Position numbers and translations under genes: made by a program
Notes under the pieces: generated by a model
What the model was told of the DNA's origin: nothing
The model's input: only the letters and a program-made list of their open reading frames with translations
Database searches by the model: none
Part shown: in pieces, positions 6,121 to 33,946 of the stretch
Layout of the letters: every line of letters begins with the position of its first letter
Position numbering within the stretch: the stretch's first letter is position 1
Assembly: GCA_021781795.1 (NCBI GenBank)
Contig: JAJXWA010000006.1
Span: forward strand, 1 to 64,000
Source of the DNA: Acidobacteriota bacterium
GTDB lineage: Bacteria > Acidobacteriota > Terriglobia > Terriglobales > Acidobacteriaceae
Direction: 5' to 3'
Length of the DNA stretch: 64,000 nucleotides

Positions 6121-6137
6121 GCGTAATCCTCCTAAAC

Positions 6138-7950
<1,813 letters not shown>

Positions 7951-8042
7951 CGATGTCTCCTTAGTGACCCTATTCTGCCGGGCGTTTTCAGTTCAAACTC
8001 GGCGGCGGATGTCCGCACGTCCAGAGTGAACCGCGGGACCGC

Positions 8043-9218: not shown

Positions 9219-9491
9219 CACTTTGCTATGGCCGGGAATGCTGATCCAGCAGTAGTGGGGCATGACAACTCTGATTGAGAATTTTGCGGCGGCGCGGTTC
9301 ATACGATGTGCGGAAGCGTGCCGCGCGAATGAAAGCAACGTTGACTATGAGCAGTCTTGAATCCGATAGACGTGATGCCTATAAGGGGGAAACCTAGGCA
9401 CAGTCTGGGCACAATTTTGGGCACAAAGGTCTTGCGCGTTTCTCAAATCGCTGATTTTTAATACTTTAAGTATGGTGCCGGGGGGCGAACG
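9219..9491. repeat. Left copy of ~265-bp direct repeat ending in a tRNA 3' remnant
   Basis: From CACTTTGCTATGG (9219) to GGTGCCGGG (about 9483) this matches 33604-33869 in the same orientation, with about eleven differences and one indel counted by eye. The first 185 bases carry only about three differences. It ends in TGGTGCCGGGGGGCGAAC, whose reverse complement GTTCG-CCCCCCGG-CACCA is a shortened copy of the tRNA-Leu 3' end, including CCA. The repeat also holds a doubled GGGCACAA word. It is best explained as one attachment-site end of an integrated element. Confidence 0.85.
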
Positions 9492-9758
9492 TTAGCCGGT
9501 TATTCGAAACACGTAAGTTGCTGATTCCAGAATCGACAGAATCGCTCGAATCGCCAGAACCGACATCTTCAGGCACAATCTGGGCACAAACAACTACTTG
9601 ATATCTGTCTGCACCTCTTCGAGGTAGCCGAGCGTCTGATGCGGCAATTGTCGCATCAGGCGGGTAACGCCTGCCCTTGCATCTCCTATTTGAATTTCAC
9701 TCGATCCGAAGCGACTCCACTCACGCGTGTGCGGTTCGCTCTCCGCCGTGCGATATTC
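9484..9758. other. Intergenic remnant region inside the left island end
   Basis: No intact gene. A second AGGCACAATCTGGGCACAAA word (about 9574-9593) echoes the same word in the flanking repeat (9396-9413). On the minus strand an open stretch ends at about 9599 and reads ...VTRLMRQLPHQTLGYLEEV... This weakly recalls the C-terminal LMRH-x-TTLGYLQEV region of tyrosine recombinases, so it may be an integrase relic. The resemblance is slight and was not tested. Confidence 0.25.
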
Positions 9759-11849
9759 CTATACGTTCTTGTAAGGGATCCACACCTGCATCCCCGCGGG
9801 TCCGCGATTCGCCCATGCGTAATATGGAATCAACTTGAGCGTGGTGGGAGCCTCTTGCAGTCTCTCTGTCTTGCTGGCCGAGAAATATAAGCCTTCTGCC
9901 TGCACTGGGTGGCTGAGGGAGCCGGGGTGCTCCAGCACCATCACGCCATCCAGAAGACCCGGCTCAAAGCGCGCGGAAGTCTCCGCACCTAAATGCGTAC
10001 TAAAGTAAGTCAGGTTCATGCCATATTGCTGGTCGGTTTGATCCAGGTGTTCCATGCAGTAGACCAGGGGGCCGCGCTGGAACGCTACTCTTCCATGATC
10101 CTCAACCACTGCGGGATTCGCCTTGAGCAACTGCGTGGTCATATCAAAGCTGAGTTCGATCACGTCATTGGCAGACCACTCACGGCGAATCGCAAAGTAT
10201 TTTCCTGGCTCCGCGCCTTCCATCTGTCTGCCGTTGACCTTCACGGTGCTCTTCGCCGACCATCCCGGAATGCGCACGTAAACGGCAAACTCAGCCGGCG
10301 CCGACGGGCTCACCGTAAGTTTCACATCACCTTCCCACGGATAGTTCGTCGTCTGCACCATCTGCAGTCCCTTGCCATCTTGAAGTTGCCAGTCCATCTT
10401 CGAGTTGTCATAGAGATGCACGTACACGCCGTCCTCGCTGGTGCTGTAAAAATAACCCGGCAGCGAGGCAAATGTCCGCTCCAGGTTGGGCGGACAGCAC
10501 GTTGTGTCATACCACGGGTTGCGGATATGACCCTCCGGAGAATGGCGGTCTCTGGAGTCGCCCGAGGGATCGAAGGCCAACGGATTTCGATAGCAGTACG
10601 TCGTTCCGTCCAGCGACATGCCGGAGTTGATGCCGTTGTAGAGCGCACGCTCCATCACATCGGCGAACCGCGCGTCGCCGGAGGCTGCAAGCATGCGCCA
10701 GTTCCACATCATGTTGCCGATCGCCGCACAGCTCTCACCATAGGCTCGCGCGTTCGGCAGCTCATACGCATCGCCAAATGCTTCACCAGCCTCGCGCGCG
10801 CCCACGCCGCCCGTGACGTAAAGCTGATGTTCCGCTAAATCGGCCCAGAGATGATTTAGCGTCTTCCAGTAATCCGCATCTCCGGTTTCGAGATAGTAAT
10901 CCGTGGCGCCACAGCACGCATACATGGCGCGTACTGCGTGCCCTTCGAGCTTCGTACGCGACGTAAATGGGATGCCGCAGAACATATACGTGATTTGCCC
11001 GCTGGTAAGCGGGATGCGATCGTCGCCGCGCAGAATGTAGCCCGCAAGATCCACGTACTCTCGCTTGCCTGTGGTGCGATATAACTCAACCAGCGCCATC
11101 TCAATCTCAGGATGCCCTGCAACAATGCCCTTCTGATTTTTGCCCGGTCCATACCCTGGAATCAGAAACTGATCGATGAAGCGAATGCCTGCATCGAGAA
11201 GAGTCCGGTCTCCCGTTGCGCGGTAGTACGCAATCGAACCTTGCAGCAAATGACCGATGTTATAGAGCTCGTGGCCCGTCTCCTGAGTGGGATAGAGCAT
11301 GCGCAGGGGCTTGCGATCGCCGACATAATATGTGTTGAGATACCCGCCCGGCTCCTGCGCGGCCACAACCTCCTGAATCATCGTCTCCGTCGTCTTGCGC
11401 AGTTCCGGATGATCCGCGGTCTGCAAACTAAAGCCCACGGCTTCGGTCCATTTGTAGATATCCGAATCCGAGTAGACCGGGCCCGTCTGAGACACAGAGG
11501 ACTCCCCCTCAAGGCGCAGGAAGTTGTTCATGCGCCCATGCGCGACCAGCTCGTCATGCATGCTTGGAATGCTGGAGTTGATATTGGTTGCTCGACGCTT
11601 CGCCCAGAATCCATCCTCAATCGTGACGGCCCGCACCGGAACCGTCTTCAGTTTCGCAAAGGGGGAATGAGTCAGATCGATCACGCCAGCTTTGTCCCAC
11701 ACTGATCCCGCAGGTGCCGCTGACGGTTCATCTCCTGGAAATCCGAGTACGCTGCTGGATGGAATCCCAGCGTGCCCCAGTGTTGCCGGAAGCACGGATG
11801 CGGCGGCGGCGGATGCAATGAATCTGCGACGTGATAGCGTGCGTTGCAT
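9759..11849 (-). CDS. GH127 beta-L-arabinofuranosidase, Tat-exported
   Basis: This 696-residue enzyme begins with a twin-arginine signal (SRRRFIASAAAASVLPATLGHA), so it is probably exported folded with its metal. It is a GH127 (former DUF1680) protein that removes non-reducing beta-L-arabinofuranose. The characterised HypBA1 active site can be mapped by spacing: acid/base Glu356 (GEAFGDAYELP), zinc ligands Glu372 and Cys374 (GESC), and Cys451-Cys452 (TTCCPPN), of which Cys451 would be the nucleophile. The (alpha/alpha)6 barrel is followed by beta domains from about 500. GAGAGGAG lies upstream of the ATG. It is the downstream-most minus-strand gene of the island. Confidence 0.92.
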   Translation of the reverse strand: MQRTLSRRRFIASAAAASVLPATLGHAGIPSSSVLGFPGDEPSAAPAGSVWDKAGVIDLTHSPFAKLKTVPVRAVTIEDGFWAKRRATNINSSIPSMHDELVAHGRMNNFLRLEGESSVSQTGPVYSDSDIYKWTEAVGFSLQTADHPELRKTTETMIQEVVAAQEPGGYLNTYYVGDRKPLRMLYPTQETGHELYNIGHLLQGSIAYYRATGDRTLLDAGIRFIDQFLIPGYGPGKNQKGIVAGHPEIEMALVELYRTTGKREYVDLAGYILRGDDRIPLTSGQITYMFCGIPFTSRTKLEGHAVRAMYACCGATDYYLETGDADYWKTLNHLWADLAEHQLYVTGGVGAREAGEAFGDAYELPNARAYGESCAAIGNMMWNWRMLAASGDARFADVMERALYNGINSGMSLDGTTYCYRNPLAFDPSGDSRDRHSPEGHIRNPWYDTTCCPPNLERTFASLPGYFYSTSEDGVYVHLYDNSKMDWQLQDGKGLQMVQTTNYPWEGDVKLTVSPSAPAEFAVYVRIPGWSAKSTVKVNGRQMEGAEPGKYFAIRREWSANDVIELSFDMTTQLLKANPAVVEDHGRVAFQRGPLVYCMEHLDQTDQQYGMNLTYFSTHLGAETSARFEPGLLDGVMVLEHPGSLSHPVQAEGLYFSASKTERLQEAPTTLKLIPYYAWANRGPAGMQVWIPYKNV

Positions 11850-11965
11850 GGACTGACTCCTCTCAGGTTGTGCTACATTGCCTCAACCACCGCACCAATC
11901 TGCATGTTGAAGCGTGATCTGTACCATCGCTGTCCTGTCATCCCGCAGCAGAACCGTGATGCCTT

Positions 11966-13474
11966 TCAGTTCCCCTGTCCCTCAATCAGCTGCCCGTAGC
12001 GGAATTGCCTGGTGTTCTGATCGCCTTCCGCTTTGCGCAGTTCCGTGAGCCGCTTCACCAAAGCGTTCAGCTCTTGCCGGTCTCCGGATTTGCGCAGCGC
12101 CAGAATGAGCGTATAGGTCGCCTGCTGATCTTTTGCATCCATCGCCAGCGCCGACCGGCACGCCTTGATAGCCTGCTCCCTCTGATCAGTCTGCAGGTAG
12201 AGCGGACCGAGTAGGTCATACGCCTGCACAAGATGGGGATTCAGCTCCGTCGCCTTCTTGGCGGCATCAATCGCTTCGCCGGTGGCCTTCTGCGTGTCGG
12301 CCGGATTTGCATCCGGCGGCGACCAGGAGAGCGCCTCGGCCAACAGGTAATAGCCGTACGCATCGTCCGGGTGCTCCTTCACCTCGCGCCGGAAGTCCGT
12401 GAGCGCAGCCTCGTGATGCTGCCGCTGAGACTGCGCGATGCCCTCCGCGGTAGCGGCCATGGTGTGGAGAGGATCAAGCTGGCGAGCGCGCTCAAAATCG
12501 TTGATGGCCTTATCGAACTCGCTATTTTGCCCGAAGAGGACACCGCGCGCCATGTAAAGCGAAGCCGAGTTGGGAAGCTGCTTTAAGCCAAGATCTACAA
12601 TATCGATCCCAACCTTGTAGGAGCCGTGTCGGGAAGAGAGATTGGCGAATTCGACATAATTGGTCACATCGTTTGGATCGCTTGCGATTGCCTTGCGCAG
12701 CAATTCCACCGCCTGTGGCGTCTCGTTGTTTGCTTCGTGGATGGCCGCAGCTAAGCGAAGCGCCCGCGCGTCACCTGCTCCTGCATCCAGCAGTGGCTGC
12801 AACGTTCCGAGAGCATCGCTGCCGGCCTGCGCGTGCCATTGGACCAACGCGAGGTCATAACGCGCCGCCCCATCCGCTGGCCGCAGCTCCAGGACCCGCT
12901 GAAAGGTTGCAATCGCCTCCGGAAGCCGGTTCAGATGCGCAAGGCAAATGGCATACTCCATGAGAGCAGCCGGTTGAAATCCAAGAACCGGCTGCGCCGC
13001 ACCGAAATCTTCCGCCGCAGATCTAAAGTCCCCCTTGTGATACTCAAGCGCAGCCAGCATCGCATGGGCTGTTGAGTTCGATGGTTGTGCCGCCAGAATC
13101 CTGCGCAGCAGGGGAATAGCTTCCGCGGATTGCTCCCTGTAATACGACTGTGCAGCACCCTGCAATGCGGGAAGATAGTCGGGCGCAAGGCGAAGCGCAT
13201 GCTGATACGATGCGAGGGCTTCCTTGGACTGGTGCGCCTGGTCAAGAGCCATAGCCCGCAGTGTCCACAGCTTGTAGGATTGCGGATCTGCGCGAAGCAG
13301 CTCGCCGCACATGCGCAGTGCATCCGCGCTGCGGCCGGCGCGAAGCGCGTCGATGACCTGGTTGGCCGAAGTGGCGCTCTCCTGCCCCCATGCGACCGGG
13401 AGGCGCGCGCCCATCAGCAATGCAGCCAGCACAAGCATTGCAGCCGTTGCTCCGCCTCTGCCCATACGAGTCAT
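11966..13474 (-). CDS. Secreted TPR repeat protein
   Basis: This 502-residue protein has a signal peptide (hydrophobic core AAMLVLAALLMGARLPVAWG) followed almost wholly by tetratricopeptide repeats. Units such as ALASYQHALRLAPDYLPAL, AIATFQRVLELRPADGAARYDLA, KAINDFERARQLDPLHTMA and QAIKACRSALAMDAKDQQATY recur about every 34 residues. The ATG at 13474 is preferred; a TTG at 13489 is possible. It lies between two GH127 genes on the same strand. TPR proteins next to TonB receptors in Acidobacteria may scaffold outer-membrane or periplasmic complexes. No enzyme domain is seen and the partner is unknown. Confidence 0.85.
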   Translation of the reverse strand: MTRMGRGGATAAMLVLAALLMGARLPVAWGQESATSANQVIDALRAGRSADALRMCGELLRADPQSYKLWTLRAMALDQAHQSKEALASYQHALRLAPDYLPALQGAAQSYYREQSAEAIPLLRRILAAQPSNSTAHAMLAALEYHKGDFRSAAEDFGAAQPVLGFQPAALMEYAICLAHLNRLPEAIATFQRVLELRPADGAARYDLALVQWHAQAGSDALGTLQPLLDAGAGDARALRLAAAIHEANNETPQAVELLRKAIASDPNDVTNYVEFANLSSRHGSYKVGIDIVDLGLKQLPNSASLYMARGVLFGQNSEFDKAINDFERARQLDPLHTMAATAEGIAQSQRQHHEAALTDFRREVKEHPDDAYGYYLLAEALSWSPPDANPADTQKATGEAIDAAKKATELNPHLVQAYDLLGPLYLQTDQREQAIKACRSALAMDAKDQQATYTLILALRKSGDRQELNALVKRLTELRKAEGDQNTRQFRYGQLIEGQGN

Positions 13475-13536
13475 AATTCCGGTTCCCAAAGTTCGACGGC
13501 GCGGGCTGTGCAGTCACCTCCGCTCCGTTCTGGGCT

Positions 13537-15396
13537 TCAGCCTACCACTTGATGGTAGAGCCGGTACTGTTCTGCATCAATGCCAGCAAACGGCTTGAAA
13601 CTAAGCCTGCCGACGGCGGTTGTTGCCTCCCAGTCTTGCGAACCAGCCGCCAGTTGTCGCGCACCCAGAAGATCGGAGCGCCGCACGACGCCGTCTGCGG
13701 GCTGAATTGCAAAGAGCGCGAGCGAGCCATAGGTGAGCGCAACCAGATTTGGATGCTGCGGATCGACAGCCTGCAACTGGAGCGGCGCATCAAATTCAAC
13801 CGCGATGCGGTCACCGTCCTTCCATGTACGGTTGACTGTCGCAAACCTTCCCGGCGTCAGCTCCTGGTCCACCTTCTTGCCATTGATAGAGAGAGTGGTC
13901 CTAGAGCCAGCCCATGCGGGAATTCGGAGCCGCATGGCAAAGGGCGTATCGCGATCTGCGCTCACAACCATCTCGGTAAAGGGAACGTGAGGATACTGCG
14001 TCCGCTGCGTCAGCGATAAGTTGGCGCCGTGATGACGCCAACTGAGCCGCGAAGGCACATAGAGATTCACATAGATGCCCTCGTCATCGTGAAAGTACGA
14101 GCTGATGCCGTAGTCCGCTGTGATCTGCGGAAACGTGCCCGAACAGCACGGCCACTTGTCCTGGTGATAGCCCTTGTGCGCCGTCAAGTTGTAGTCGGAG
14201 TAGTAAAAGCTCGAACCGTCTGTTTTGAGAGGCTTGGCGCCAAGAATCGTGTTGTAGAGCACGCTCTCCATGCTGTCTCCGTAGCGGCTGTCGCCCGTGA
14301 CCGAGAGCAGGTAGCGCCCAATCTTGAAGTGCCCATAAGCGCCGCACGGAGTCTCAAAGCTCGCGTGCGACTTCGTCAGGCTCGCTCCAATCTCGCCGCT
14401 CCCCGGTTTGCGGAAGAGCTCGTCGGGACCCCATCCACCTGTGGCAAAGCTCTGGGTCGTACGCAGAAACTCAAATCCGTTCTTCGCAGCACTCAGATGC
14501 TTCTCCGAGCCGAGCACAAGATAGGCCTGCATCGCAGAGCTGAATGCGTTCACGTGGCTGTACGCATGTTCTCCCGGCAACACGTTCTCTCCGCGCGCGA
14601 GCGGGCCAAAGTACAAGTCATCTTCGATAAACCGGATCGCCAAATCGCGATAACGGGAGTTGCCGCTGAGGCGGTAGGCGAGAAACAGGTTCTCAGGCAG
14701 CGTGTACGTTTCATCCCAGCAGTAAGCCACGTCCTTGTGCGGCCGCGCGAACTGCTCCTTCCGGGAGAGCGCCTTCTCTGGAAGATGCGGCACCACCGCG
14801 TCGGTCGCAGCCTTGTGCACATCCAGAGCCCGAGTGTCGCCGGCATAACGATAGGCATCGATCAGCCCGCAGCTTGTCTTGTCATACGTGTAGGCGGGCA
14901 GATGATAGTCGTCATAAAAGCGCGAGCAGACCGTCGGCGCAAATCCCTGCACGAGCTGTTGCACCTTTTCCTGCGTCGCCTTCGAACCCGTAACCGCATA
15001 GGCTCGCGCCAGTCCTGAGACGTATTGCCCAAAGCTGTGGCCCGGAATAAAGCCGTGAAAACTGCCGGTTCCATCAAAGGCTGGGTCGTTGTCATACCAT
15101 CCCCCCATGTCCTCGCCCGGCGCCGCAAGCCCAGCGCGCTGCCGAAACGCTTTGAGCAGTCTGTCATTATCAAGCGCCAGAAAAAACGCGTGGTTGGTCT
15201 CGAACTGCTGGAGCATCGGGCCATCCAGAAGCTGGACCCGCTGGTAGTCAAAAGTGCGAATCAACGGCCGTATTGCCACGGATGCGTTGTTAGGTGCTGC
15301 GCCCGCGGCAGCCTTCGCTACAGAACGATGGGCCACAACTGCTCCAGTTGCAGCCGCGCCAAGAGCAAGAAACCTTCTTCGAGTAACCCTTTTCAT
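13537..15396 (-). CDS. GH127-like (DUF1680) glycoside hydrolase with an atypical metal site
   Basis: This 619-residue protein has a Tat signal (TRRRFLALGAAATGAVVA) and the DUF1680 barrel: FIPGHSFGQYVSGLARAYAVTG, GGWGPDE and ESVLYNTILGAK are visible. The paired cysteines are kept (Cys417-Cys418 in WPCCSG). The upstream metal motif is FETPC, with Glu348 and Cys351 separated by two residues rather than one as in HypBA1 and in the sister enzyme at 9759. The position of the acid/base Glu is less clear (Glu326 or Glu335). It may act on another beta-arabinofuranosyl linkage or belong to a divergent subfamily. It is followed by the TPR gene and preceded by a TonB receptor. Confidence 0.85.
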   Translation of the reverse strand: MKRVTRRRFLALGAAATGAVVAHRSVAKAAAGAAPNNASVAIRPLIRTFDYQRVQLLDGPMLQQFETNHAFFLALDNDRLLKAFRQRAGLAAPGEDMGGWYDNDPAFDGTGSFHGFIPGHSFGQYVSGLARAYAVTGSKATQEKVQQLVQGFAPTVCSRFYDDYHLPAYTYDKTSCGLIDAYRYAGDTRALDVHKAATDAVVPHLPEKALSRKEQFARPHKDVAYCWDETYTLPENLFLAYRLSGNSRYRDLAIRFIEDDLYFGPLARGENVLPGEHAYSHVNAFSSAMQAYLVLGSEKHLSAAKNGFEFLRTTQSFATGGWGPDELFRKPGSGEIGASLTKSHASFETPCGAYGHFKIGRYLLSVTGDSRYGDSMESVLYNTILGAKPLKTDGSSFYYSDYNLTAHKGYHQDKWPCCSGTFPQITADYGISSYFHDDEGIYVNLYVPSRLSWRHHGANLSLTQRTQYPHVPFTEMVVSADRDTPFAMRLRIPAWAGSRTTLSINGKKVDQELTPGRFATVNRTWKDGDRIAVEFDAPLQLQAVDPQHPNLVALTYGSLALFAIQPADGVVRRSDLLGARQLAAGSQDWEATTAVGRLSFKPFAGIDAEQYRLYHQVVG

Positions 15397-15521
15397 GCCT
15401 TTTTGCCAGTGCGTTTCAATAGTTGTAGAAACCGAATGCCGGGAAACAGAGTGGAGCGGCTGATTGACTTCGACCGCTCCACAGTTTCGCTAGACGCAGA
15501 CAAGCCTGCGCATCTTTGCTC

Positions 15522-18500
15522 TTAGAACGACACGCTTGCGCCAAGCTGAATCCAGCGCGGCTCATACTGTGACGTTGACATGCCGAAGTTTGCATCGGTC
15601 ATATTCACATCCGGATTCTGCAGGTTGGTGTTGTGGAAGAGGTTGAAGAAGTCCACGCGGAACTGGAAGTTCACTCCCTCCCGGATCGCCGTATCTTTCA
15701 AGAGTGTTGCATTGGTTTCAAAGAACCCCGGACCGCGGAAGCCGTTGTAATTCTCAGTGCCTTCACCGGCTCCAAAGGCAGGCGCTGTGACCTGATTGGG
15801 ACTGCCAGCAAACACGCCCTTGAGCCAGTTCTTACGGCTATTGGGAATGCTGTAACTGGAAACGTTCGGATAGTCGTAGTTATCGCCATCCGCGTTGAAG
15901 TCACCGCCGCTGTTGCCAATCCATGTGGCGCCCGCCGTGCATGGCATCGTTGCGCAGACAGGAATAAACGGGTTGTAGTTGGCCACCGTGAACGGATATC
16001 CCGACTGCGATACGACCGTACCACTCACGCCCCAGCCTCCAGTCACGCGGCCTACCAAGCCGGCGCCGTGGTTCAGGCCATGCAGGTTGTAGTTAAAGGT
16101 CGCAGACAATCGATTTGGCGAGTCCCAGTTCGACGGCGCAAAGTACTGTCCTGGATTTGTCCAGGTGGGATATACCTGGGTGTCGTCCTTCGATACAGAA
16201 CGCGTATACGAGAGATCAACAAAGCCCGTTCCCGCAAAGCGTCCGCGCACATCGGCTATGAAGGCATCGAAGCTCGATCGTCTGTCGTTTCTGGTGTCAC
16301 TGATCGCCCCAAAGCTCTGATTCAGTCGCGTGGGCACGGTCTTGTGATTCTGGATAAGGTCTCCGGGGTAGCTGTTGATATCCACGCCATAACTGACGCT
16401 GTAAACCTGTCCGCCACCTGAGAGCTGGCGCGTTGCGCGCGAGCCCGAGTAGCCAATGCTTGTCACAAAGTTATGCGGCAGTGGATGCTCCAGCTGCGCT
16501 GAGTAGATATAGGTGACCGGCGTCTTCAGGTTCGGATCGATGGCCCCGATGCCGAACTGCAGCCCGGTGATGCCGCCCTGCGAATTCAGAGGCGCCGGCG
16601 TCAGAGTCGGATAGGTGTATCCGAAGGGCGGAGTGTTCGTCGTGCCCAGCCCGAATACCGGTGCATGCGCCGTGCCTGCATAAAAGGTTGGGTTAATCGG
16701 CCCTGGAGGATTGCCGCGATACTGCTCCTGCACATTCGCCATGGTCGGCCAATTGTGGAAGATGCCTGCCCCGCCGTGCAGAACCCATTGACTGTTCCCG
16801 GCGATATCCCACGCCACACCGGCGCGCGGGCTGAAGATATCCGTAATCGAGTGATTCAGGGCATGGGTCGTCGGACGCACGTAGCCGTTCGCAATCTGCT
16901 CGTCCTCAGACGATCCGGAACCCATGTAGAAGTTGCCGAAGATCGTCAGCGCGCTGCGCGAATACGGGTTGCCGAAATCATCCCAGCGCACGCCATAGTT
17001 GATGGTTAGGTTCTTCCTTACCTTCCAGGTGTCTTCGGCAAATAACCCATAGGTGCGGCTGGCCGCATTCCAGTTCCACTCCACATGCTGGCCGGTCACA
17101 GGGTTGTACATCACGCCGGTTTCGTTGTAGGGCGCGTCCTGCACCAGATTGAGCATGCTCGTGAAATAGAAGGTTGGCAGATCGTATGGTCCCTGGAAAA
17201 GCTCCACGTCGTCGCCCATCCACCCCTCGAACCCTGCCTTCAACGTATGCGCGCCATGAATGTGCGTCAGTACGTCGCGCCAGTGATAGTTGTGCTGGAT
17301 GAAGTCTCCCAGCGCAAAGCCGTCGCCGAAGCCCGTACCAAGGCCCTGTACATTGATGACCGGAACCTTGAAGTCGCCGGACGCAGGCTGAATACCCTCA
17401 ACGCGCATCCCACCCACTGCAGCCTCATTCAGTGTGTTGGGAGAGAAGGTATGCGTTTCATTGCCCTGCCAGGCCCAGGTGTAATAGTTGGAGGTTGTCG
17501 TAAATTGAGGCCGCAGCGCCGGACCGCCAGTGCTCAAAGTCGTGCGATAGATGTTGCCGTACACACGATCATTGGTGAAAGCCTTATCGATGCGTGTGTT
17601 CCATTGCATGCCATTGCGGAAGCTCGTTGCGTTAAAGAGTCCGTTGTCGAAGATCGGCAGAGCGCATGGAACTCCATTGCCCGTCTGCGTTCCGCCGGTC
17701 GCGGTGTTATCGCAGTTGTTCGCGCCAAAATATTGCGCCGCCGTCTGCGAAACCGTGGGGTTGGTCGCCTTTGCCGGATACTGGGAAAGAATGCTCGTTC
17801 CCAGCGAGTTCGGGTAGTTCTGCTTCGCCCACGCGGTGAACTGCGGGTCTTCAAAAGACACCAGCGCGTTGCCCGTCGAGCTCGCCTCCCGCAACGGCTC
17901 AATCGCGAAAAAGAAATATGCCTGATGGTGCGGAATGATCGGCCCACCAATCGTGCCCGACATGTTGTTGCTGTGGAATGGGGCAAACGACACGCCTCCA
18001 TTGAACTGCGAATGCGTCCACAGCTGCTGGTTGTTGAAGAAGTCGCTAGCGCTGCCGTGGAACTTCTCTCCGCCGGCCTTGGTTGTCATCGCCATTTGGA
18101 TCGAGCTCGCGCGGCCGTAATCCACCGTGTACGTGTTGACCTGAATACTGGTCTCCTGCACGGAATCCGGGTTCGGCGTCAGATTCAGCACACCGGGACG
18201 AATTGCGCTGGTCACATCGAGTCCGTCCACAATGTACAGATTGCCGACCGCTCCCTGCCCATTCGCGCTGGAATCGACCTGCGTCTCAGTCGAAAAATTA
18301 TCCGCTGCGGATCCTGGCGAACCGCCGGCAACGATGCCAAGACCGGTTATGCCGGGCGCCATTGTGACCAGCGAGATCATGCTGCGCCCGGCCAGAGGCA
18401 GGGTCGTCATCTGATCCGATTCGAGGGTCAACTGATTCCGGCTTTCTGCTGTATCCAGAACCGGAGGCTCGCCCGTGACAGAGACGGTTGCACTGGTCGA

Positions 18501-24366: not shown

Positions 24367-24391
24367 TCCATTATCTCCTAGATGCACCCTG

Positions 24392-25891: not shown

Positions 25892-26028
25892 TCGTACTCT
25901 CCGGCATAGACGCTGCCGGGCAGATTTGTCCGACATCCGGCAGCGCGTTCTCCAGGTTGGTTGCTGTAGGCTTTTGTTTCTTGGAAAAGTGCAATCCGAA
26001 CGCACTCCGCATCCGGGTTGCACAGCCA

Positions 26029-29000
26029 TCAGTACGTGATGCGCAGAACAAACTGGATACTTCGCGGTCCGTTCAGAGTGCTTCCAATCTGACCGAATGC
26101 GTCATCCTGAATGCCTGAGTCTGGCTTGTTGAAGATGTGCCGATTGAATGCGTTGAACATCTCGCCGCGGAATTCAGCCTGCACCTGGTCGTGAATGGGT
26201 ATTGTCTTGTTGATGCCGAAGTCTTCGTCAAAGAAGTTGAATCCACGAATATCGGCTGAGTTACGCGGCATGTCGCCGAATGTCCAGGCGCCTGTGCCAC
26301 GGTTGGGCCCGGAGTTGGGATCGGAGAACGCAGTGCAGTTCCAGAAGCCCGTCGTGCACGATCCCGAGCCTGGACCAAATGTCCCCGAGTTAACAAAGGT
26401 GAACGGATTGTAGTTGCCCGAAGATGCTTTCACTCCCTGGCTAACTACGCGGTTCGGGCGAATTCCATTGTCGAAGCCCGGAATGCCCGTGCCGCCGAAG
26501 AAGCTGATGGGCTGCCCGCTCATGTAGCGCTGCACGCCGCTGATGCGCCAGCTGGAAATCACGGCGCTCACCGGGCGTGGCGTGTTGGCGAGGAACTTTT
26601 TACCCTGGCCCACTGGCAGTTCGTACAGATAGCTGACTACGAAGTTATTCGGAATATCTTCGTTGCTGACTGCCTTTTCTGCCTTGTGGTCATACGGGTT
26701 CTGCGTTCCGCCCTGGTTCTGCAGAGTGCTGTAGAAGGGCTGAATCGCATCAGCATCGGTCAGCGTCTTCGAGAAGGTGTAGGAAGCCAGCACGTTCAAT
26801 CCGTTCTGGAAGCGCCGCTCCATCTTGGCTTCCATCGCTTCATACGTTGACTGACCTACGTTCTGCAGATAGCTGTCCGTGTTGATGTAACCGTACTGAG
26901 GGAACGGACGCAGCGCCTGTTGCACCGTCACGCCGGGTCCCCAAGTCTGATAGAAGTTCGCATACGGCGCCGTCACACCCACCGTGTTCGAAAGCACCGG
27001 CTGCAACAGGCCATTGCCAAGGGCAAGTCCATTCAGTCCGATGTCGTTCGGGAAGTCGATGAGCCCGTGCAGGCGCGTGGAGTGCATCCCCAGATAGCCC
27101 AGTGAGAAGAACAGATCCGGAGCAATCTGGTATTGGTTTTCAAGCGTCCATGTTTCCACCATCGCCGGCCGGCCATACGCCGGCGCGATGTAATCGACAG
27201 CTTGGCCGTTCAGCTGGGTCGGACTCACGTCAGGTGTGTTGGGCAACAACGGCAGACCGGCATCGAGCTGTGGTCCCGACAAGGGATCGGAGCTGAACAG
27301 TGTCTGGTTCACAGTGAAACCCTGCATCGTGCCCTGTCCAAAGTCGGCATAGACCAGCGGACCGTAGTAGATGCCGCCGCTGCCGCGCACCACGTCCTTG
27401 TTCCCGAGGATGGGCGGCTGCCATGCAAAACCAACACGTGGCTCGATGTCCTTGTAGTAGGTGTTTGCCCAGGTCTCGCCCGTGTTGCCGTTACGTCCAG
27501 CACCCTTGCCAGCAAAGACCAGTGCTCCTGGAATGCCATTCGCGGCCGCGTTCGGAACCAGCGGACTCATGATCGACGTATCGCCCTCGGCCTCGTGACG
27601 TGGCGTGTCAAAGCTCCAGCGCAGACCAAGGTTCAAACTGAGACGCGAGCTGGCCTTCCAGTCATCCTGGAAGAATAGCGATGCATAGTGCGTAATCCAG
27701 CGGGGTGAGTGCAATTGCTGCAGGGCATTGGCCGTGCCTGCCTGACCCACAAGGAACGCCGCAAACGAGTTCCCGTCCAGTCCCCAGTAGGTCGTGTCGG
27801 AAGCCGTCTGGTTATCCCAGAAGGTGAAGCAGCCAGAGGTGCCGCTGCACGTGCCGCCAATCTTGCTCACAAAAGAGTACTGGTGGTACTGCGTTTCGCC
27901 ACCGAACTTCAGGCTGTGCGCTCCATGCTGCCAGTGGAGGATATCGTTGATCGCGATGACGTTGTCCACGTCCTGCGCGTCAGAGTTCTCGCCGAAGCTG
28001 GGATATGGGCTACCAATGAAGACGAAGCCCGGGAAGACAGGACCGGTTCCGTTGGCAATGCCGAGCTTGCTGTCCCAGTTCGTGCCCATCTCCGCTGCGC
28101 GAGAAAGTGTGTAGTTATTCGAGCGATTCGTGCCAAATGTCAGTGAGTTCACCTTCGTCGGGCTGAGGATCCAGTCCCACCCAAGGCGGAACAGCTTGCC
28201 AAGCTGGTTGTAGGCTATGCCGCCACCCGAAGTCAGCGGCGCGGGCAGGTTCATGCCGTTGCCCTGATCCGTATTCTGGCGCGAATCGTAGAAACCCCAG
28301 ATCTTGTGATTGGTGGTCAGGTTCTGGTCGATACGGATGCTGTAAACCGTCTGCGCAATCTGGTCGTGCGTATCGTAGACAAAGTTGTTGGGGCCTGTGC
28401 CGGAAAGATTCGGCGCCGGCAGATACTTGATCACATTCGATGCAACGTTGCTCAGGCGCGACAGAGGAATCTCATTCAATTGGCCGTTGTAGGTAAGTGG
28501 CGTACGGCAGCCGTTTACCTCGGTGTTCGGATCGAAGATCTCTCCGTAATACAGCTTGTTATTGCAGGCGTCCGTAGCCGGTGTACCGTTGGCATTGAAG
28601 ATCTGCGGACCGAGCGTGGACGAGAAATCCAGATAGTTGCCGTTGCTGCCCAGCATGACCGGTGTCGGAATCAGGCTTGTGACCGCTGAGCCGGTGTTAT
28701 AACGAAGCTGCTCCCAGCTGAAAAAGAAGAACGACTTGTCGCGTCCGTTATAGAGATGAGGGATGCGAATCGGACCGCCGAGCGTGGTGCCAAAGTCATT
28801 CTTTGTATCCGCCGGGCGCTGCAGACTGTTGCGGACGGTAGGATTTGTTGCGGTTGCCAGATAGCCGTTGTTGAACCAGTTGTTCGCATCGAACGCGGCG
28901 TTCTTGAAGAAGTTGTAGACCACGCCGTGATAGTCGTTCGTGCCGCTCTTCGTGTTGAAGTTCGCGAGTCCGCCCGTCGTCCTGCCAAGTTCTGCAGGCA

Positions 29001-29757
29001 ATCCCGAGATGCTGATGTGAAACTCCTGCACAGCTTCAACCGAGGGGGCCACGATATCAAACGAGCCAGAACCATTCTCCTGGCGGTTTGTCGTGATGCC
29101 GTCCACCAGGTAGTCCGTGCCTTCTTCCTGGCCGCCGTTGATCTTTGCCATCTGGAACGCGGAGCCACCCGACGAAGTGCCTGGTCCAACCGCGCCGGGA
29201 ACCAGGAACTCCAACGTGGAGAGCGACCGCAGATTGCCCGTCACCTGCAACGGCAGATCTTCCACCTGGTCAGGCTGAATCGAAGTATCTACGTCGGAGC
29301 TTTCCTTCTCCAGCGAAATCGCTTCCGCCGTCACATTCACGCTCTCGGTCGCCTCGCCAACCTGTAGCGTGACATCCTGCGCGGTGCGAACGCCCACGGC
29401 CACCGTGATGCCCCGCAGAACCGTTGTCTTGAAATTCGTGGCCGTGACCGTTAGCTCATATACGCCTGTCCTCACCGAGGGCACTGTGTAATAGCCTGTG
29501 GACGAGCTAATCGTGGAATACGACGTTCCGGTCGATTTCTCGGTCGCGTGAATTCCAGCTCCGGCCACGACCTTTCCTGCAGGATCTGTAATCACGCCGC
29601 TGATGGATCCTGTATCCAACTGGGCCGTGGCCGCATGAGTCAGCCCGAAGAGGACCAAGGTCAGCCAGAGCCATGTCCAGCCAAACCCGACTCTGCACCG
29701 TGCCAGCCTGTCCCTTTGTTGCTGCGATGTGCTGGTGCACTTTCGTTGCAAGTTCAT
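26029..29757 (-). CDS. TonB-dependent receptor, Oar-like (island receptor 2)
   Basis: This 1242-residue outer-membrane receptor starts at an ATG preceded by AGGAGGCAGGAGA. The signal peptide (WLWLTLVLFGLTHAATAQ) is followed by a carboxypeptidase-regulatory-like domain (SISGVITDPAGKVVAGAGI), a plug with LVDGITTNRQENGSGSFD, and a long barrel ending QFVLRITY with a terminal aromatic. It is a distant paralogue of receptor 1, so the two may take up different arabino-oligosaccharides. A LacI-type box lies 15 bases ahead of the ATG. It heads the run receptor 2, lectin-GH43, GH43. The substrate is inferred from its neighbours. Confidence 0.9.
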   Translation of the reverse strand: MNLQRKCTSTSQQQRDRLARCRVGFGWTWLWLTLVLFGLTHAATAQLDTGSISGVITDPAGKVVAGAGIHATEKSTGTSYSTISSSTGYYTVPSVRTGVYELTVTATNFKTTVLRGITVAVGVRTAQDVTLQVGEATESVNVTAEAISLEKESSDVDTSIQPDQVEDLPLQVTGNLRSLSTLEFLVPGAVGPGTSSGGSAFQMAKINGGQEEGTDYLVDGITTNRQENGSGSFDIVAPSVEAVQEFHISISGLPAELGRTTGGLANFNTKSGTNDYHGVVYNFFKNAAFDANNWFNNGYLATATNPTVRNSLQRPADTKNDFGTTLGGPIRIPHLYNGRDKSFFFFSWEQLRYNTGSAVTSLIPTPVMLGSNGNYLDFSSTLGPQIFNANGTPATDACNNKLYYGEIFDPNTEVNGCRTPLTYNGQLNEIPLSRLSNVASNVIKYLPAPNLSGTGPNNFVYDTHDQIAQTVYSIRIDQNLTTNHKIWGFYDSRQNTDQGNGMNLPAPLTSGGGIAYNQLGKLFRLGWDWILSPTKVNSLTFGTNRSNNYTLSRAAEMGTNWDSKLGIANGTGPVFPGFVFIGSPYPSFGENSDAQDVDNVIAINDILHWQHGAHSLKFGGETQYHQYSFVSKIGGTCSGTSGCFTFWDNQTASDTTYWGLDGNSFAAFLVGQAGTANALQQLHSPRWITHYASLFFQDDWKASSRLSLNLGLRWSFDTPRHEAEGDTSIMSPLVPNAAANGIPGALVFAGKGAGRNGNTGETWANTYYKDIEPRVGFAWQPPILGNKDVVRGSGGIYYGPLVYADFGQGTMQGFTVNQTLFSSDPLSGPQLDAGLPLLPNTPDVSPTQLNGQAVDYIAPAYGRPAMVETWTLENQYQIAPDLFFSLGYLGMHSTRLHGLIDFPNDIGLNGLALGNGLLQPVLSNTVGVTAPYANFYQTWGPGVTVQQALRPFPQYGYINTDSYLQNVGQSTYEAMEAKMERRFQNGLNVLASYTFSKTLTDADAIQPFYSTLQNQGGTQNPYDHKAEKAVSNEDIPNNFVVSYLYELPVGQGKKFLANTPRPVSAVISSWRISGVQRYMSGQPISFFGGTGIPGFDNGIRPNRVVSQGVKASSGNYNPFTFVNSGTFGPGSGSCTTGFWNCTAFSDPNSGPNRGTGAWTFGDMPRNSADIRGFNFFDEDFGINKTIPIHDQVQAEFRGEMFNAFNRHIFNKPDSGIQDDAFGQIGSTLNGPRSIQFVLRITY

Positions 29758-29771
29758 TCTCCTGCCTCCTG

Positions 29772-29785
29772 AGGAAACGCTTCCC
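29772..29785. promoter_or_regulatory. LacI-type operator box 2 (receptor 2)
   Basis: AGGAAACGCTTCCC is nearly palindromic (GGAA-ACGC-TTCC). It lies 15 bases upstream of the receptor 2 ATG, overlapping or flanking its ribosome site region. It shares the AACGCTT core with the other three boxes. Confidence 0.6.
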
Positions 29786-29886
29786 CGGTTGGTCCCGTTG
29801 ATTCGCGTTTCGGTCTGTCTGCCGCCCTCTTTCGCCCGCCGAAGCGGATGTCGCTGGCACCTGCGGCTCGATGCCAGCGGTCTGCT

Positions 29887-31206
29887 TCACGGTTGAGGTT
29901 GCGTCCCGGCTACGATCTTCTCCGGGTCATTCACAGGCAGTTCAGTCCTGTTGCGCGCAATCTGCGCCGTATGTTGGGCCTGCCTGCTCTTGATCTGCGC
30001 GCGCATGCGCAGAAAATTGTCCATCGCCGCCTTGGCCTGCTCCGGCTCATGCAGCGTGCGATACTCCAGCGCCAGCTTGTAGTACGACATCATGGCGCGG
30101 TCGTCATTGGGGTTAGCCGCAATCGCCTGTTCAAATTCGTGAATCGCTTCCAGCGGCTCGCCTGTCTCTGTCAGACCAGTGCCGAGATAGTAGTGGGCAT
30201 CGATCAGCGTCGGATCCGCTGCAAGCGCCTCCCGCAGCAGCTTGACCCCTTCCGCAGACCCCTGATTCAAAACCAGAAACGCGCCAAGCTTATACTTCGT
30301 GCTCACCGAATAGGGATCAATCGTCAGTTCCTCGCGATATGCGGCTGCCACCTTGTCCAGCGTCCCCGACGCCCAGTACTGGTCAGCCAGTTCCTCGTGT
30401 AAGCCCGGGTGCTGAGGAGCCATCCTCACCGCCAGTTCGAACTCGCTCACCGCCTCCTGGTTGCGGTACGCCTGCGCGTAGGCTTCGCCCAGCACCTGGT
30501 GTACCCTCATCGAGTCGTGGTTCAGCTTGAACATTGCGTCGTAGGACGCGTTGGCAACCAGCAGATACGCCCTGCCGCGGTGGTACAGTATGTCAGCGTC
30601 CCTGGGGTCAAGCGCGTACGCGGTGTCCAGTGGCTTGATCGCCGCCTGCGCGTCGCCTTCTGCCAGCCTGCACACTCCCAACCACATGAAGGCCTTGGCA
30701 TCGTGAGGGTCTATCTGCGTCTCTTTCGTCAGATTCACCTCAGCCTGCTTCAAATGGTTAAGCCGGTAATCGGTAATGCCGAGAAAAAGATGGGCCCCAC
30801 GCAGACCCGGCTTCAGTTGAAGAGAGTGCTCCAGCGCCGTCCGGGCCTCTTCGAGCTTGCCCGCCTGTTCCAGCGCCAGGCCAAGATTGAAGTAGCCCGC
30901 TGCAAACGACGGCATCCGCGCCGTGACCGCGGTGTAGTCCTTTACTGCCGCGGCAAAGTCACCCGCCGCCATCGCTGACGCGCCTGCTTGCATCTGCGCC
31001 TGGACATCGGTTGTTGCCTGCGCCTGGACGAGGCAAGAAGAAGAAAAAGCGAAGAACACGATCACCATGATCGCCGCAGGCACAAGCGCGCATATCGAAG
31101 CTCGGCCTGAGCCCGCCGCATCGGTCCCGGTGTCTACCTGGTCACCAGCGCGCTGGATCCAATCCAATGCTGTTCGGGTTTCGCTTGCGTTCGTCTGCGT
31201 ATGCAT
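29887..31206 (-). CDS. TPR repeat protein with N-terminal membrane anchor or signal
   Basis: This 439-residue protein has a hydrophobic segment at about 39-61 (ICALVPAAIMVIVFFAFSSSC) after a polar N-terminus, so it is exported or membrane-anchored. From about 70 it is tetratricopeptide repeats: DFAAAVKDYTAVTARMPSFAAGYFNLG, ARTALEHSLQLKPGLRGAHLFLG, AAIKPLDTAYALDPRDADILYHRG, AIHEFEQAIAANPNDDRAM. It sits 129 bases upstream of receptor 2 on the same strand, with its own LacI-type box at 31271. It resembles TPR proteins accompanying acidobacterial TonB receptors. A role in receptor complex assembly is possible but unproven. Confidence 0.83.
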   Translation of the reverse strand: MHTQTNASETRTALDWIQRAGDQVDTGTDAAGSGRASICALVPAAIMVIVFFAFSSSCLVQAQATTDVQAQMQAGASAMAAGDFAAAVKDYTAVTARMPSFAAGYFNLGLALEQAGKLEEARTALEHSLQLKPGLRGAHLFLGITDYRLNHLKQAEVNLTKETQIDPHDAKAFMWLGVCRLAEGDAQAAIKPLDTAYALDPRDADILYHRGRAYLLVANASYDAMFKLNHDSMRVHQVLGEAYAQAYRNQEAVSEFELAVRMAPQHPGLHEELADQYWASGTLDKVAAAYREELTIDPYSVSTKYKLGAFLVLNQGSAEGVKLLREALAADPTLIDAHYYLGTGLTETGEPLEAIHEFEQAIAANPNDDRAMMSYYKLALEYRTLHEPEQAKAAMDNFLRMRAQIKSRQAQHTAQIARNRTELPVNDPEKIVAGTQPQP

Positions 31207-31511
31207 GTCCTGGGCTCAAAGATGTTTGTGGCGCTCTCCACCGCGCATCACCACTGAAAAACAACTCTTCAGTAAGCGTTTGCTGAGGGCAGTGGAGTCC
31301 CACTCGGATGCCATCGTGCATTCAACACCGCACTTTTGCGACTGTAAAGCCAATAACGGTTCAGCGCCCGTTACGAGGCGTTAACATGTTTAAAATAAGA
31401 ATCTTAAGGTGAAATTTACGCATCTTTTCCGAGACACGTTACGTGTCGCTGTGGCTCGATTTTCCCGGTGCTATAGTGAGATTTGGCCTCGGCTTTGTCT
31501 TCGGAGAGGGT
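31207..31511. promoter_or_regulatory. Divergent promoter region with LacI-type box 3
   Basis: This 305-base gap lies between the minus-strand TPR gene and the plus-strand winged-helix/TolB/TPR gene. It contains AGTAAGCGTTTGCT at 31271-31284, the third LacI-type box, 65 bases upstream of the TPR gene. An AT-rich stretch at 31380-31412 may hold a promoter. No gene is seen here. Confidence 0.55.
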
Positions 31512-33497
31512 ATGAGCAGCACCCCGTCGCTCGGAAAATCGGAACTCCTGACATCCGATCAAAAACTCCTCGTTCAGAAACACCTCGAGGAGATTCTCTC
31601 CAGCAGCGCGTTCGCTGGCAGCAAGCGGACGCAAGCCTTCCTGCGCCTCATCGTTACCCATACCCTGGAGGGCGACCTCGACAGCCTGCGTGAGCGCATG
31701 ATCGGCGCGGAGCTTTTTGGTCGCCCCGTCAGCTACGACACCGGCAATGATTCGGTCGTCCGCGTCCGTGCCAGTGAGGTCAGAAAGAAACTCGCCTCTT
31801 ACTACAGCAACGCTGGCAGGCAGCCGCAGCCCGTGCGCATTGAACTGCCGAGCGGCTCCTATGTCCCACGTTTCCATTTTGAAGCCGGCCTCAGGCGTGA
31901 GCCTGCCTCCCATCCCGGCACGCATTCGGCAGACACGAGCGCCTTGGCCGAGCCTGTCTCCACCACCCCCGCGGCCGAAGCTTCGTCACCCCACACCCTC
32001 GAAAGCCACGATCTCCCCTCGTCAGTGCATCCGGTCTCCCGATGGAAGATCATTTCCCTCTTCGTAGCGCTCGTGCTGCTCGTGGCCTCTGGTCTGGTCT
32101 TCTGGATGTGGAAACGAAACACCGGCAGCCATAAAGGGATCCACTCCATCGCGATCCTGCCCTTGCAGAATCTCTCCGACGTTTCCGGGCAGGAATACTT
32201 CGCCGACGGCATCACGGAAGAGCTGATCAACGACCTCGGCCAGGTGCCCAACCTGCGCGTCATCTCGCTCACCTCGTCCATGAGCTATAAGGGCACCCAC
32301 AAAACGCTCCCCGAAATCGCACGGGAACTCTCCGTGGATGGGGTCGTCGAAGGCGGCATTCTCCGCGAAGACAACCAGGTCCGCATCAGCGTGCAACTCA
32401 TTGATGCCACTGCCGATCGCCCCATTTGGGCGCATACTTATGTTCGCGGTCTCACCAACGTTCCCTCCTGGCAGGGTGAGGTGGCCGAGGCAATCGCCGA
32501 GCAGATCAGCATCCAGCTCACACCCCAGCAGCACGCCCGCCTCTCCCATGAACCATCCGTCAATCCCCAGGCGCAGGACCTGTACCTGCACGGCATTCTT
32601 CTGCGCGAAGCGGACCAGTGCGGTCAGGCCATCGATTTCTTCAACCGCGCCATTGACCTGAGCCCCAATTACGCACAGGCTCACTCCGCGCTCGCCAGTT
32701 GCTTCGGCCGCCTTGGAGAATCCGGCCACCTGCCCTACAAAACAGCCTTCACGAGGCAGAAGGAAGAGGCACTCAAGGCCATCGCACTCGACGATTCGCT
32801 CGCCGAGGCGCACGCCGAGTTGGCCAACACTGACATGACGCTCGACTGGGACTGGCAGGCTGCCGCCGCTGAGTTCCGCCGCGCGCTTGAACTCAACCCG
32901 AACTCCGCTACTACGCACGAGAAGTACGCCTTTTATCTCGTCCGCACCGGCCACACACAGGAAGCGCTCGCCGAAATCGGAGCCGCAGTCGCCCTCGATC
33001 CCGTCGCAGGCAGCACCTTCCACGCCGAAGGCTTCGTCGATTACTTTTCCCGCCAGTATGACCGCGCGCTCAACGTGGCACAAACCGTGCACGGACTCAA
33101 AATCAATCTTCCCGACTGGTATTTCCTGCTGGGCGATGTCTACGCAGCCAAGGGCCTTTACGCACAATCCATCGAGGCCTTCCAGAAGTCCGGCAGCGGC
33201 CCCTACTCGCTCGGCCACCTCGCCGGCGTGGAAGCACGCGCCGGCCGCACCGCCGAGGCGAAAGCCATCCTCGCACAGTTACTGTCCAGCGTCGACAAAG
33301 ACGGCATTGGGAACTACGAGATTGCGCTCATCTATACCGGCCTCGGCGACAGGAACAACGCCTTCCGCTGGCTCGACAGGGCATATCAGGTCCACGACGT
33401 CGGCCTCGTTTACCTCAAGGTCGACCCATCGCTCGATCCCTTGCGCGCTGACCCGCGCTTTGCCGATCTCATGCAGCGAGTCGGCCTTGCTCCGTGA
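31512..33497 (+). CDS. Winged-helix / TolB-like / TPR transmembrane regulator-like protein
   Basis: This protein of 661 residues starts at the ATG at 31512, preceded by GGAGAGGG; an upstream in-frame start at 31443 lacks such a site. The N-terminal cytoplasmic part (about 10-110) resembles a DNA-binding or effector domain common in acidobacterial TPR proteins, with TQAFLRLIVTHTLEG, SYDTGNDSVVRVRASEVRKKLASYY and PSGSYVP. A membrane helix (about 178-200, SLFVALVLLVASGLVFWMW) leads to a TolB-N/FlgO-like domain (SIAILPLQNLSDVSGQEYFADGITEEL, given in parts; VISLTSSMSYKGT) and TPRs to the end. This CadC-like layout suggests a membrane-bound regulator. It closes the island. Confidence 0.82.
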   Translation: MSSTPSLGKSELLTSDQKLLVQKHLEEILSSSAFAGSKRTQAFLRLIVTHTLEGDLDSLRERMIGAELFGRPVSYDTGNDSVVRVRASEVRKKLASYYSNAGRQPQPVRIELPSGSYVPRFHFEAGLRREPASHPGTHSADTSALAEPVSTTPAAEASSPHTLESHDLPSSVHPVSRWKIISLFVALVLLVASGLVFWMWKRNTGSHKGIHSIAILPLQNLSDVSGQEYFADGITEELINDLGQVPNLRVISLTSSMSYKGTHKTLPEIARELSVDGVVEGGILREDNQVRISVQLIDATADRPIWAHTYVRGLTNVPSWQGEVAEAIAEQISIQLTPQQHARLSHEPSVNPQAQDLYLHGILLREADQCGQAIDFFNRAIDLSPNYAQAHSALASCFGRLGESGHLPYKTAFTRQKEEALKAIALDDSLAEAHAELANTDMTLDWDWQAAAAEFRRALELNPNSATTHEKYAFYLVRTGHTQEALAEIGAAVALDPVAGSTFHAEGFVDYFSRQYDRALNVAQTVHGLKINLPDWYFLLGDVYAAKGLYAQSIEAFQKSGSGPYSLGHLAGVEARAGRTAEAKAILAQLLSSVDKDGIGNYEIALIYTGLGDRNNAFRWLDRAYQVHDVGLVYLKVDPSLDPLRADPRFADLMQRVGLAP

Positions 33498-33603
33498 CCC
33501 TATTCCGGCACTGCCACTCCCGCTGACAGATTGTAGCCTCCGTAACTCGACTCAACCTGAATCCCGAAGCTCGGTTTCCTGTTCTCGGCAAGATCGAAAA
33601 AGG

Positions 33604-33869
33604 CACTTTGCTATGGCTGGGAATGCTGATCCAGCAGTAGTGGGGCATGACAACTCTGATTGAGAATTTTGCGGCGGCGCGGTTCATACGATGTGCGGAA
33701 GCGTGCCGCGCGAATGAAAGCAACGTTGACTATGAGCAGTCTTGAATCCGATAGACGTGATGCCTATAAGAGGAAAACCTAGGCACAGTCTGGGCACAAT
33801 TTTGGGCACAAAGGTTTTGTGCATTTGTTAAATCGCTGATTTTAAAATACTTTATGTATGGTGCCGGGA
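33604..33869. repeat. Right copy of ~265-bp direct repeat, running into tRNA-Leu
   Basis: This copy matches 9219-9483 in the same orientation and includes the GGCACAGTCTGGGCACAA words. Its right end enters the 3' end of the tRNA-Leu gene. The last 70 bases have drifted more than the first 185. Together with the left copy it would permit precise loss of about 24,385 bp by homologous recombination. Confidence 0.85.
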
Positions 33870-33946
33870 GGGGGGGTCGAACCCCCATGACCGCAAGGGT
33901 CGGCGGATTTTGAGTCCGCTGCGTCTGCCAGTTCCGCCATCCCGGC
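33859..33946 (-). tRNA. tRNA-Leu (anticodon CAA)
   Basis: This 88-nt tRNA includes an encoded CCA. The acceptor stem GCCGGGA pairs with TCCCGGC. The D-arm begins TGGCGGAACTGGCAGACGC, as in leucine tRNAs. The anticodon stem-loop reads CGGACTCAAAATCCG with CAA at 34-36. A long variable arm (type II) and the T-arm GGGGGTTCGACCCCC complete it. Its 3' end marks the right boundary of the putative island; a degraded copy of that end is at about 9474-9491. Confidence 0.96.

Follow-up and report, generated by a model that had tools for sequence, protein, structure and literature searches.

A candidate sugar-use island next to tRNA-Leu(CAA) in an Acidobacteriaceae genome, with ends resembling integrase attachment sites

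RESULTS AND DISCUSSION

A block of plant-sugar genes in an Acidobacteriaceae bacterium (GenBank assembly GCA_021781795.1, contig JAJXWA010000006.1) is probably a genomic island that entered the 3' end of a tRNA-Leu(CAA) gene by tyrosine-integrase recombination, next to a second segment with the same type of attachment site. These two segments, designated E1 (the block, approximately 9.49 to 33.86 kb) and E2, lie in the window, i.e., the 64,000-nucleotide (nt) stretch analyzed here, which comprises bases 1 to 64,000 of a 102-kb contig and begins at the contig end. The genome is a metagenome bin (a 3.4-Mb draft in 89 contigs, 87.7% complete). The G+C contents of E2, E1, and positions 33,947 to 64,000 are 57.8%, 58.6%, and 63.1%, respectively. 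The anatomy of the locus (repeats, tRNA, core, arms, other cargo at similar sites elsewhere, and no integrase in the block) is well supported; from there we infer the mobility of E1, a helper, and the recombinase. E1 would have landed in tandem beside E2 (left of 9.47 kb), which has the same kind of attachment site; an integrase would bind the GGCACA repeats described below; and E1 would now move, if at all, only with the help of an integrase acting from elsewhere.

Anatomy of the attachment sites

A repeat search of the window (minimum, 60 nt; seed, 16) returned a single family of long direct repeats, at 9215 to 9461 and 33600 to 33846, spaced by 24,385 nt. After extension (approximately 9219 to 9485 and 33604 to 33871), the copies aligned with 95.5% identity over 266 columns, with 12 differences (11 interior and 1 in the last column); the first-pass annotation, made by eye, had counted about eleven. 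The right copy continues into an intact tRNA-Leu(CAA), and the left copy ends in a worn, shortened tRNA-Leu 3' tail that retains the CCA (TGGTGCCGGGGGGCGAAC, versus TGGTGCCGGGAGGGGGGGTCGAACC at the tRNA). The alignment thus bears out both ends as that annotation had described them. A BLAST search of the genome with the repeat hit two places only, the window's own copies (second copy, E value of 5.4e-120), each at a tRNA tail. The dispersed-repeat reading, which the annotation had named as one of its refuting cases, was accordingly rejected for this genome. The features of the locus are as follows.

1 to 9218, no strand: segment E2, with a MacB permease, a cupin, dehydrogenases, a lipocalin, an aldo/keto reductase, an SDR, and a LysR (Pfam)
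9219 to 9472, plus strand: left repeat copy, a P-type arm assigned to the next element leftward, E2 (alignment; arm profile E value of 9.8e-30, the copy itself being a seed row)
9397 to 9425, plus strand: three GGCACA direct repeats in the left arm (pattern search)
9473 to 9490, no strand: left core, a worn tRNA-Leu 3' tail with CCA (alignment)
9491 to 9595, plus strand: P'-type arm, left end of E1 (profile, with the window as one of its 8 seed rows)
33604 to 33858, plus strand: right repeat copy, a P-type arm at the tRNA end of E1 (alignment; profile seed row)
33782 to 33810, plus strand: three GGCACA direct repeats in the right arm (pattern search)
33859 to 33946, minus strand: intact tRNA-Leu(CAA), the integration target (tRNA prediction)

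Lambda-type attachment sites generally consist of a core with arms on either side. The approximately 250 bp beyond the tRNA are best read as one arm of an integrase attachment site, so that the long repeat would be an arm plus a core. The GGCACA triplets in both copies point toward the tRNA tail. On the island side of the left core, the P'-type arm comprises a spacer, AATCG repeats (9530 to 9566), and then two GGCACA motifs (9572 to 9588); a search of the whole window matched no second-arm repeat pair on the far side of the tRNA. The left site therefore has the structure arm-core-arm and the right site arm-core-host (i.e., the intact tRNA), as would be expected of two elements, E1 and E2, arranged in tandem. 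At the sequence level, this is the layout of a tyrosine-integrase attachment site, with a core at the tRNA 3' end and arm repeats on both sides, to which an integrase would be expected to bind. The first-pass annotation had taken the extension of the repeat past the tRNA as a hint of either tandem integrations or duplication of the flank; the arm-core-arm site speaks for the former, and the second arm across the core disfavors the latter.

Lack of integrase and transfer genes

No integrase was found among the 12 genes of the block, all of which match other families, although a very divergent integrase might escape. This gene scan was run against Pfam with overlapping open reading frames (ORFs) left out; a small ORF (22426 to 22965) had no Pfam match. 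A local integrase profile built from six sequences matched none of the window ORFs, and all PF00589 matches in the genome were on other contigs, none on that of the window. These results support the earlier proposal that a metabolic island without an integrase sits at the 3' end of the tRNA. Relaxase, coupling, and secretion families were also absent from the 12 genes. Neither the integrase nor the relaxase that an integrative and conjugative element or an integrative mobilizable element would carry was thus matched in the block.

We compiled 14 tRNA-proximal arm sites from 13 genomes (working handles G000, G124, G133, G191, G217, G246, G268 twice, G293, G331, G339, G411, G422, and G425), chosen by BLAST or by eye; the repeats are incomplete in G331, G425, and G268:C85. 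Among the matches listed, none of the 14 sites had an intact PF00589 on its own contig in the direction of the arm; five of the sites are on contigs that end within 5 kb, and PF00589 misses divergent integrases. The sole PF00589 match near an arm (G217, 1.3 kb away) appears broken and split across two frames, and a weak PF00589 remnant in G268 lies on the opposite side of the tRNA from the arm. Pfam scans of ORFs around the arms revealed no recombinase family, with several ORFs lacking any match.

Similar sites with different cargo in relatives

The DNA of the left site matched 16 of 398 genomes of the family, and that of a similar site in G371 matched 17 of 80 genomes of the genus (own genome included in both counts); several of these matches are merely 30 to 60 bp long, and some span only the tRNA-adjacent stretch. 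Arm profiles were built from 16 (P) and 8 (P') sequences including the window, so most listed sites match by construction. In sites outside the seeds, the P arm was detected in L041, L042, L044, and L120 (E values of 1.4e-29 to 4.8e-13) and the P' arm in L118, L119, and L120 (4e-32 or better; 1.5e-30 in L119). The pattern GGGGAA..GGCACA..GGCACA occurred in 9 of the 398 genomes, and its reversed control in none. A GTDB scan with this pattern gave nine loci, seven of them in G133, G191, G246, G268, G293, G339, and G371; the other two (L135 and L139) were set aside as chance-like, having no tRNA and, in one case, lying within a long open frame. The left site was unmatched in phage and plasmid collections, and the pattern scan of IMG/VR found nothing.

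G191 follows the same plan, with a tRNA end at 132.9 kb, a junction at 145.9 kb (where the second arm is partial), and a distal core and arm at 152.3 kb. Its 6.5-kb unit has four ORFs of at least 90 amino acids (aa), namely, a MacB-like permease, a winged-helix TPR regulator, and two small ORFs that were not scanned. In G246, the tRNA end is at 14.65 kb and the distal core and arm at 64.0 kb, with an outer side lacking repeats; genes there are homologous to those of E1 (GH127, 33%; TPR, 40%; receptor, 43%). Arm-core-arm sites away from the tRNA were found in G371, G217, and G422. Among selected ORFs, the cargo at congener sites differed and included sugar transporters, GH2, GH127, a GH63/trehalase-like enzyme, PfkB kinases, glycosyltransferases, and permeases; DUF4238, a TIG-repeat protein, parts of efflux pumps, and a DNA methylase were present as well. 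In G124 (L041:8880-9310), the arms are approximately 230 bp apart with hardly any cargo, as in a nearly emptied element.

GGCACA triplets across the family

The triple GGCACA pattern gave 49 matches in 38 of the 398 family genomes (reversed pattern, 13 matches in 10 genomes); 13 of the 49 are sites of the window's own attachment-site family. Thirty of the loci were fetched. In 10 of them, the repeats had a predicted tRNA no more than 100 bp away and always lay 3' of it; the tRNA is a tRNA-Leu(CAA) in 2 cases and a tRNA-Glu, -Lys, -Asp, or -Val in the other 8. This count does not include three further loci where a tRNA was predicted (L171, 400 bp away; L162, low complexity; L154, the tRNA of another element). 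The six-sequence profile detected an integrase stretch in 5 of the 30 loci (L156, L166, L177, L167, and L170). That of L156 lies on the far side of the tRNA from the repeats, L166 and L177 have no predicted tRNA, and L170 holds a 68-aa piece. L167 carries, one after another, an open 482-aa integrase stretch (Phage_integrase, 94 bits), the GGCACA repeats, and the 3' end of a tRNA-Val. These arrangements are consistent with GGCACA repeats acting as putative integrase-binding sites.

The tRNA-Leu(CAA) locus in relatives

The position beside tRNA-Leu(CAA) is variable. The GH3 gene on the host side of the tRNA also adjoins the tRNA in G392 (87% aa identity), whose contig stops 143 bp beyond the tRNA, and in G383 (84% over 341 aa), where a different island with different repeats and other cargo is present. 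Except for one weak receptor match, no E1 genes were found on the 30-kb contig of G383. Homologues of the aldo/keto reductase, SDR, and LysR genes of E2 lie by the tRNA in G383 (L122, G383:C118), inverted relative to window positions 6138 to 8976. They were not accepted as proof that the region left of 9219 is ancestral flank, given the inverted order and identities of 53 to 63%, versus 84% for the host gene.

Other arm types occur at the same tRNA, without a nearby PF00589 in G144, G238, G365, and G416 and with one in G388. There, an integrase gene ends approximately 90 bp from tRNA-Leu(CAA), which shows the layout to be expected of a complete element. Further repeat types follow this tRNA in some congeners (e.g., L078, L084, L094, L095, and L099): ATGCACCA, ACAGCCACCA, and GTATCACCA. 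The variety suggests that several integrase types share the site.

A second kind of element splits tRNA-Leu(CAA). In G124, a 5' piece of 41 nt and a 3' piece of 74 nt, with 27 nt in common, lie 16 kb apart, and the same tRNA is split in G191 (loci of this kind are L197 [G124:C12:53000-72000], L033 and L198 [G191:C2], and L145 [G133:C64]). The element brings its own tRNA-Leu(CAA), which is the same in G124 and G191 and 66% identical to that of the host (59 of 90 columns); in G133, 65 of 89 columns agree, and the range across elements is 66 to 73%. The G124 element encodes a TrwC relaxase, a TrwB-type coupling protein, and ArdC. The G124 and G191 elements each encode a probable divergent tyrosine recombinase (94% identity between the two over 426 aa), judging from its residues; Pfam gives no more than a subthreshold Phage_int_SAM_5 match for one copy. 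By the split tRNA in G191 (L033:7436-10506), a HamA-family gene (PF08878; Hachiman defense) is followed by a DEAD-box helicase gene.

Cargo of E1

The 12 genes of E1 were annotated as follows.

9759 to 11849, minus strand: GH127-type enzyme with catalytic, middle, and C-terminal domains (aceric acid hydrolase model, 499 bits, under its cutoff of 950)
11966 to 13489, minus strand: TPR-repeat protein (Pfam)
13537 to 15396, minus strand: second GH127-type enzyme with catalytic and middle domains (Pfam)
15522 to 19073, minus strand: outer-membrane receptor, OMP_b-brl_4 and CarboxypepD_reg (Pfam)
19237 to 20235, plus strand: periplasmic sugar-binding protein, Peripla_BP_4 (Pfam)
20220 to 22421, plus strand: sensor histidine kinase, HisKA_3 and HATPase_c (Pfam; an N-terminal 3keto-disac_hyd match is weak and below the cutoff)
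22405 to 23049, plus strand: LuxR-type response regulator (domain scan)
23245 to 24435, minus strand: GH43, endo-arabinanase AbnA-like (311 bits, under the curated 480)
24392 to 26029, minus strand: GH43 with a ricin-type lectin domain, AbnA-like (260 bits, under the curated 480)
26029 to 29757, minus strand: outer-membrane receptor, OMP_b-brl_4 and CarboxypepD_reg (Pfam)
29887 to 31206, minus strand: TPR-repeat protein (Pfam)
31443 to 33497, plus strand: TPR protein, a probable regulator (a 37%-identical homologue, L034:7950-10037, has a Trans_reg_C domain)

In the first gene set, receptor-GH127-TPR-GH127 (minus strand) faces the sugar-binding protein, kinase, and response regulator (plus strand); the second consists of receptor-GH43-GH43 (minus strand), the TPR protein, and the probable TPR regulator. 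Judging from these families, the cargo probably serves in the sensing, binding, cleavage, and uptake of plant polymers that contain arabinose. The Pfam annotation of GH127 is beta-L-arabinofuranosidase, and one of the E1 enzymes partly resembles an aceric acid hydrolase; besides arabinan, side chains of pectin or extensin are possible targets. The receptors are presumably of the TonB type. The locus had been called a complete arabinan locus, a description that was not borne out: Pfam matched no arabinose isomerase, kinase, epimerase, GH51, or inner-membrane sugar transporter among the 12 genes, and a complete pathway would include arabinose catabolic enzymes and such a transporter. PHROGs yielded no useful annotation for the seven proteins tried. 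Polysaccharide utilization loci combine outer-membrane receptors, glycoside hydrolases, and a sensor system, and the receptors of E1 likewise adjoin glycoside hydrolases and a sensor system. Unlike SusCD-type loci, E1 had no match to a SusD family or a monosaccharide pathway among its 12 genes.

Relatives of the GH127 enzyme at 13537 were found in 204 of the 398 family genomes (E value of 1e-60 or less, with up to three candidates scored per genome), the closest in G374 (81%), G261 (79%), and G365 (78%). The 7.5-kb contig of G374 carries four of these cluster genes, and in G371 a GH43 (70%), a GH127 (68%), and a TPR regulator (60%) are grouped together away from the tRNA.

Alternative explanations

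Several observations weigh against entry of E1 by integrase-mediated recombination beside E2. The assembly is a draft, the left end of E2 lies beyond the contig start, and the G+C content of 61.7% at 64 to 102 kb makes the contrast smaller farther right. The two cores, at the left site and at the tRNA, differ in sequence, so that E1 is not a fresh insertion. No integrase gene turned up beside exactly these arms. An empty site with a single repeat, proposed earlier as a check, was not found in relatives: of the two that share the host gene, G383 is occupied by another island and G392 reaches its contig end. At seven of the eight other tRNAs, the GGCACA triplets face away from the tRNA, the sense of the window's second (P') arm, whereas the tRNA-side arm of the window faces it. 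The arm-core-arm site of G217 (L036:15680-15924; G217:C1, approximately 99.68 to 99.92 kb) has the opposite orientation to the tRNA, which is 46 kb away; a later inversion would be the only explanation we can offer. Finally, genes of the left half of E1 are collinear and in the same orientation away from the tRNA in G261 (seven genes) and G365 (six genes), with no tRNA or arm near them in the 40/49 kb (G261) and 28/28 kb (G365) read. The first-pass annotation had named the same gene order without flanking repeats, across distant Acidobacteria, as a refutation; the recurrence seen here, within the genus, goes part of the way toward it. Because the order is kept away from the tRNA, the sugar cluster is an independent unit, which is cargo at tRNA-Leu(CAA) in this genome but is not bound to the island.

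This collinearity of half the cargo in congeners could also be expected if the block were original chromosomal sequence and its repeats had arisen by segmental duplication of the DNA flanking the tRNA. We regard this as very improbable: the relatives read have other sequence after the tRNA, the arms recur with unrelated cargo, and a second arm lies across the core. A misassembly at one junction of the 265-bp repeat has in its favor the 89-contig bin and a window that starts at a contig end; the 11 interior differences between the copies and sites of the same plan in independent assemblies make such an error hardly credible. Ordinary homologous recombination, in which an arm-bearing circle crosses into a resident arm without an integrase, is unlikely but would account for one feature. 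The differences between the repeat copies concentrate toward the core, with 2 in columns 1 to 168 (one of them at column 168) and 10 in columns 169 to 266 (Fisher test, P = 0.001, with the cut picked post hoc), a distribution that could result from a crossover or gene conversion. Homologous recombination does not account for the fact that the two copies both stop at the tRNA tail, nor for the arm of another type on the other side of the left core.

Somewhat less doubtful, though still tentative, is a family of nonautonomous elements with fixed ends (an arm of approximately 265 bp, a 25-bp core, and an arm of approximately 100 bp), exchangeable cargo, and an integrase supplied in trans. The congeners examined have similar ends with different cargo (e.g., the 6.5-kb unit of G191), and the lack of intact PF00589 at the 14 sites fits as well. 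The same check is limited by its five short contigs and by the divergent integrases that PF00589 overlooks; the islands with other arms named above also mostly lack a nearby PF00589 (all of them but that of G388), so that loss may be general; and no helper was identified. Such end-module elements might conceivably make tRNA-Leu(CAA) a docking site in the Acidobacteriaceae for swappable, often carbohydrate-use gene sets. On balance, we favor an island that entered at the tRNA by tyrosine-integrase recombination.

Relation to known systems and implications

Tycheposons are cargo islands associated with tRNAs. E1 itself is best filed as CIME-like, i.e., as an element that would have kept its att ends and lost its mobility genes: alignment and comparison place a core and arms at both ends (attL and attR, with cores that differ), and no integrase or transfer genes were found among the 12 genes. 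The cis-mobilizable element (CIME) is of the streptococcal type (Pavlovic 2004, as cited in PMC5704250). CIMEs resemble E1 in being bounded by att-like sites, in lacking integration and transfer genes, and in forming a tandem with a neighboring segment at a tRNA; E1 differs in its plant-sugar cargo and in that its helper and its excision are putative. A CIME is mobilized in cis by an adjacent integrated element, and in the window the neighbor on the left is truncated by the contig end. In PMC3146451, the ssrA islands of Dehalococcoides have a serine recombinase and a 20-bp repeat, and 15 islands are without integration modules. They share with E1 the tandem arrangement following an RNA gene whose 3' end is repeated, as well as niche-defining metabolism, and differ from it in that E1 has a tyrosine-type site with long arms at a tRNA-Leu.

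An open-licence, title-level search of the literature on acidobacterial genomic islands and integrative elements at tRNAs and on arabinan/GH127 loci found no report of this locus, and an open-licence search for polysaccharide loci with attachment sites gave no paper. Read as an attachment site, the long repeat offers a way to find islands overlooked by integrase searches, and tRNA-Leu(CAA) emerges as a hot spot through which soil acidobacteria may gain and lose the degradation of plant polymers.

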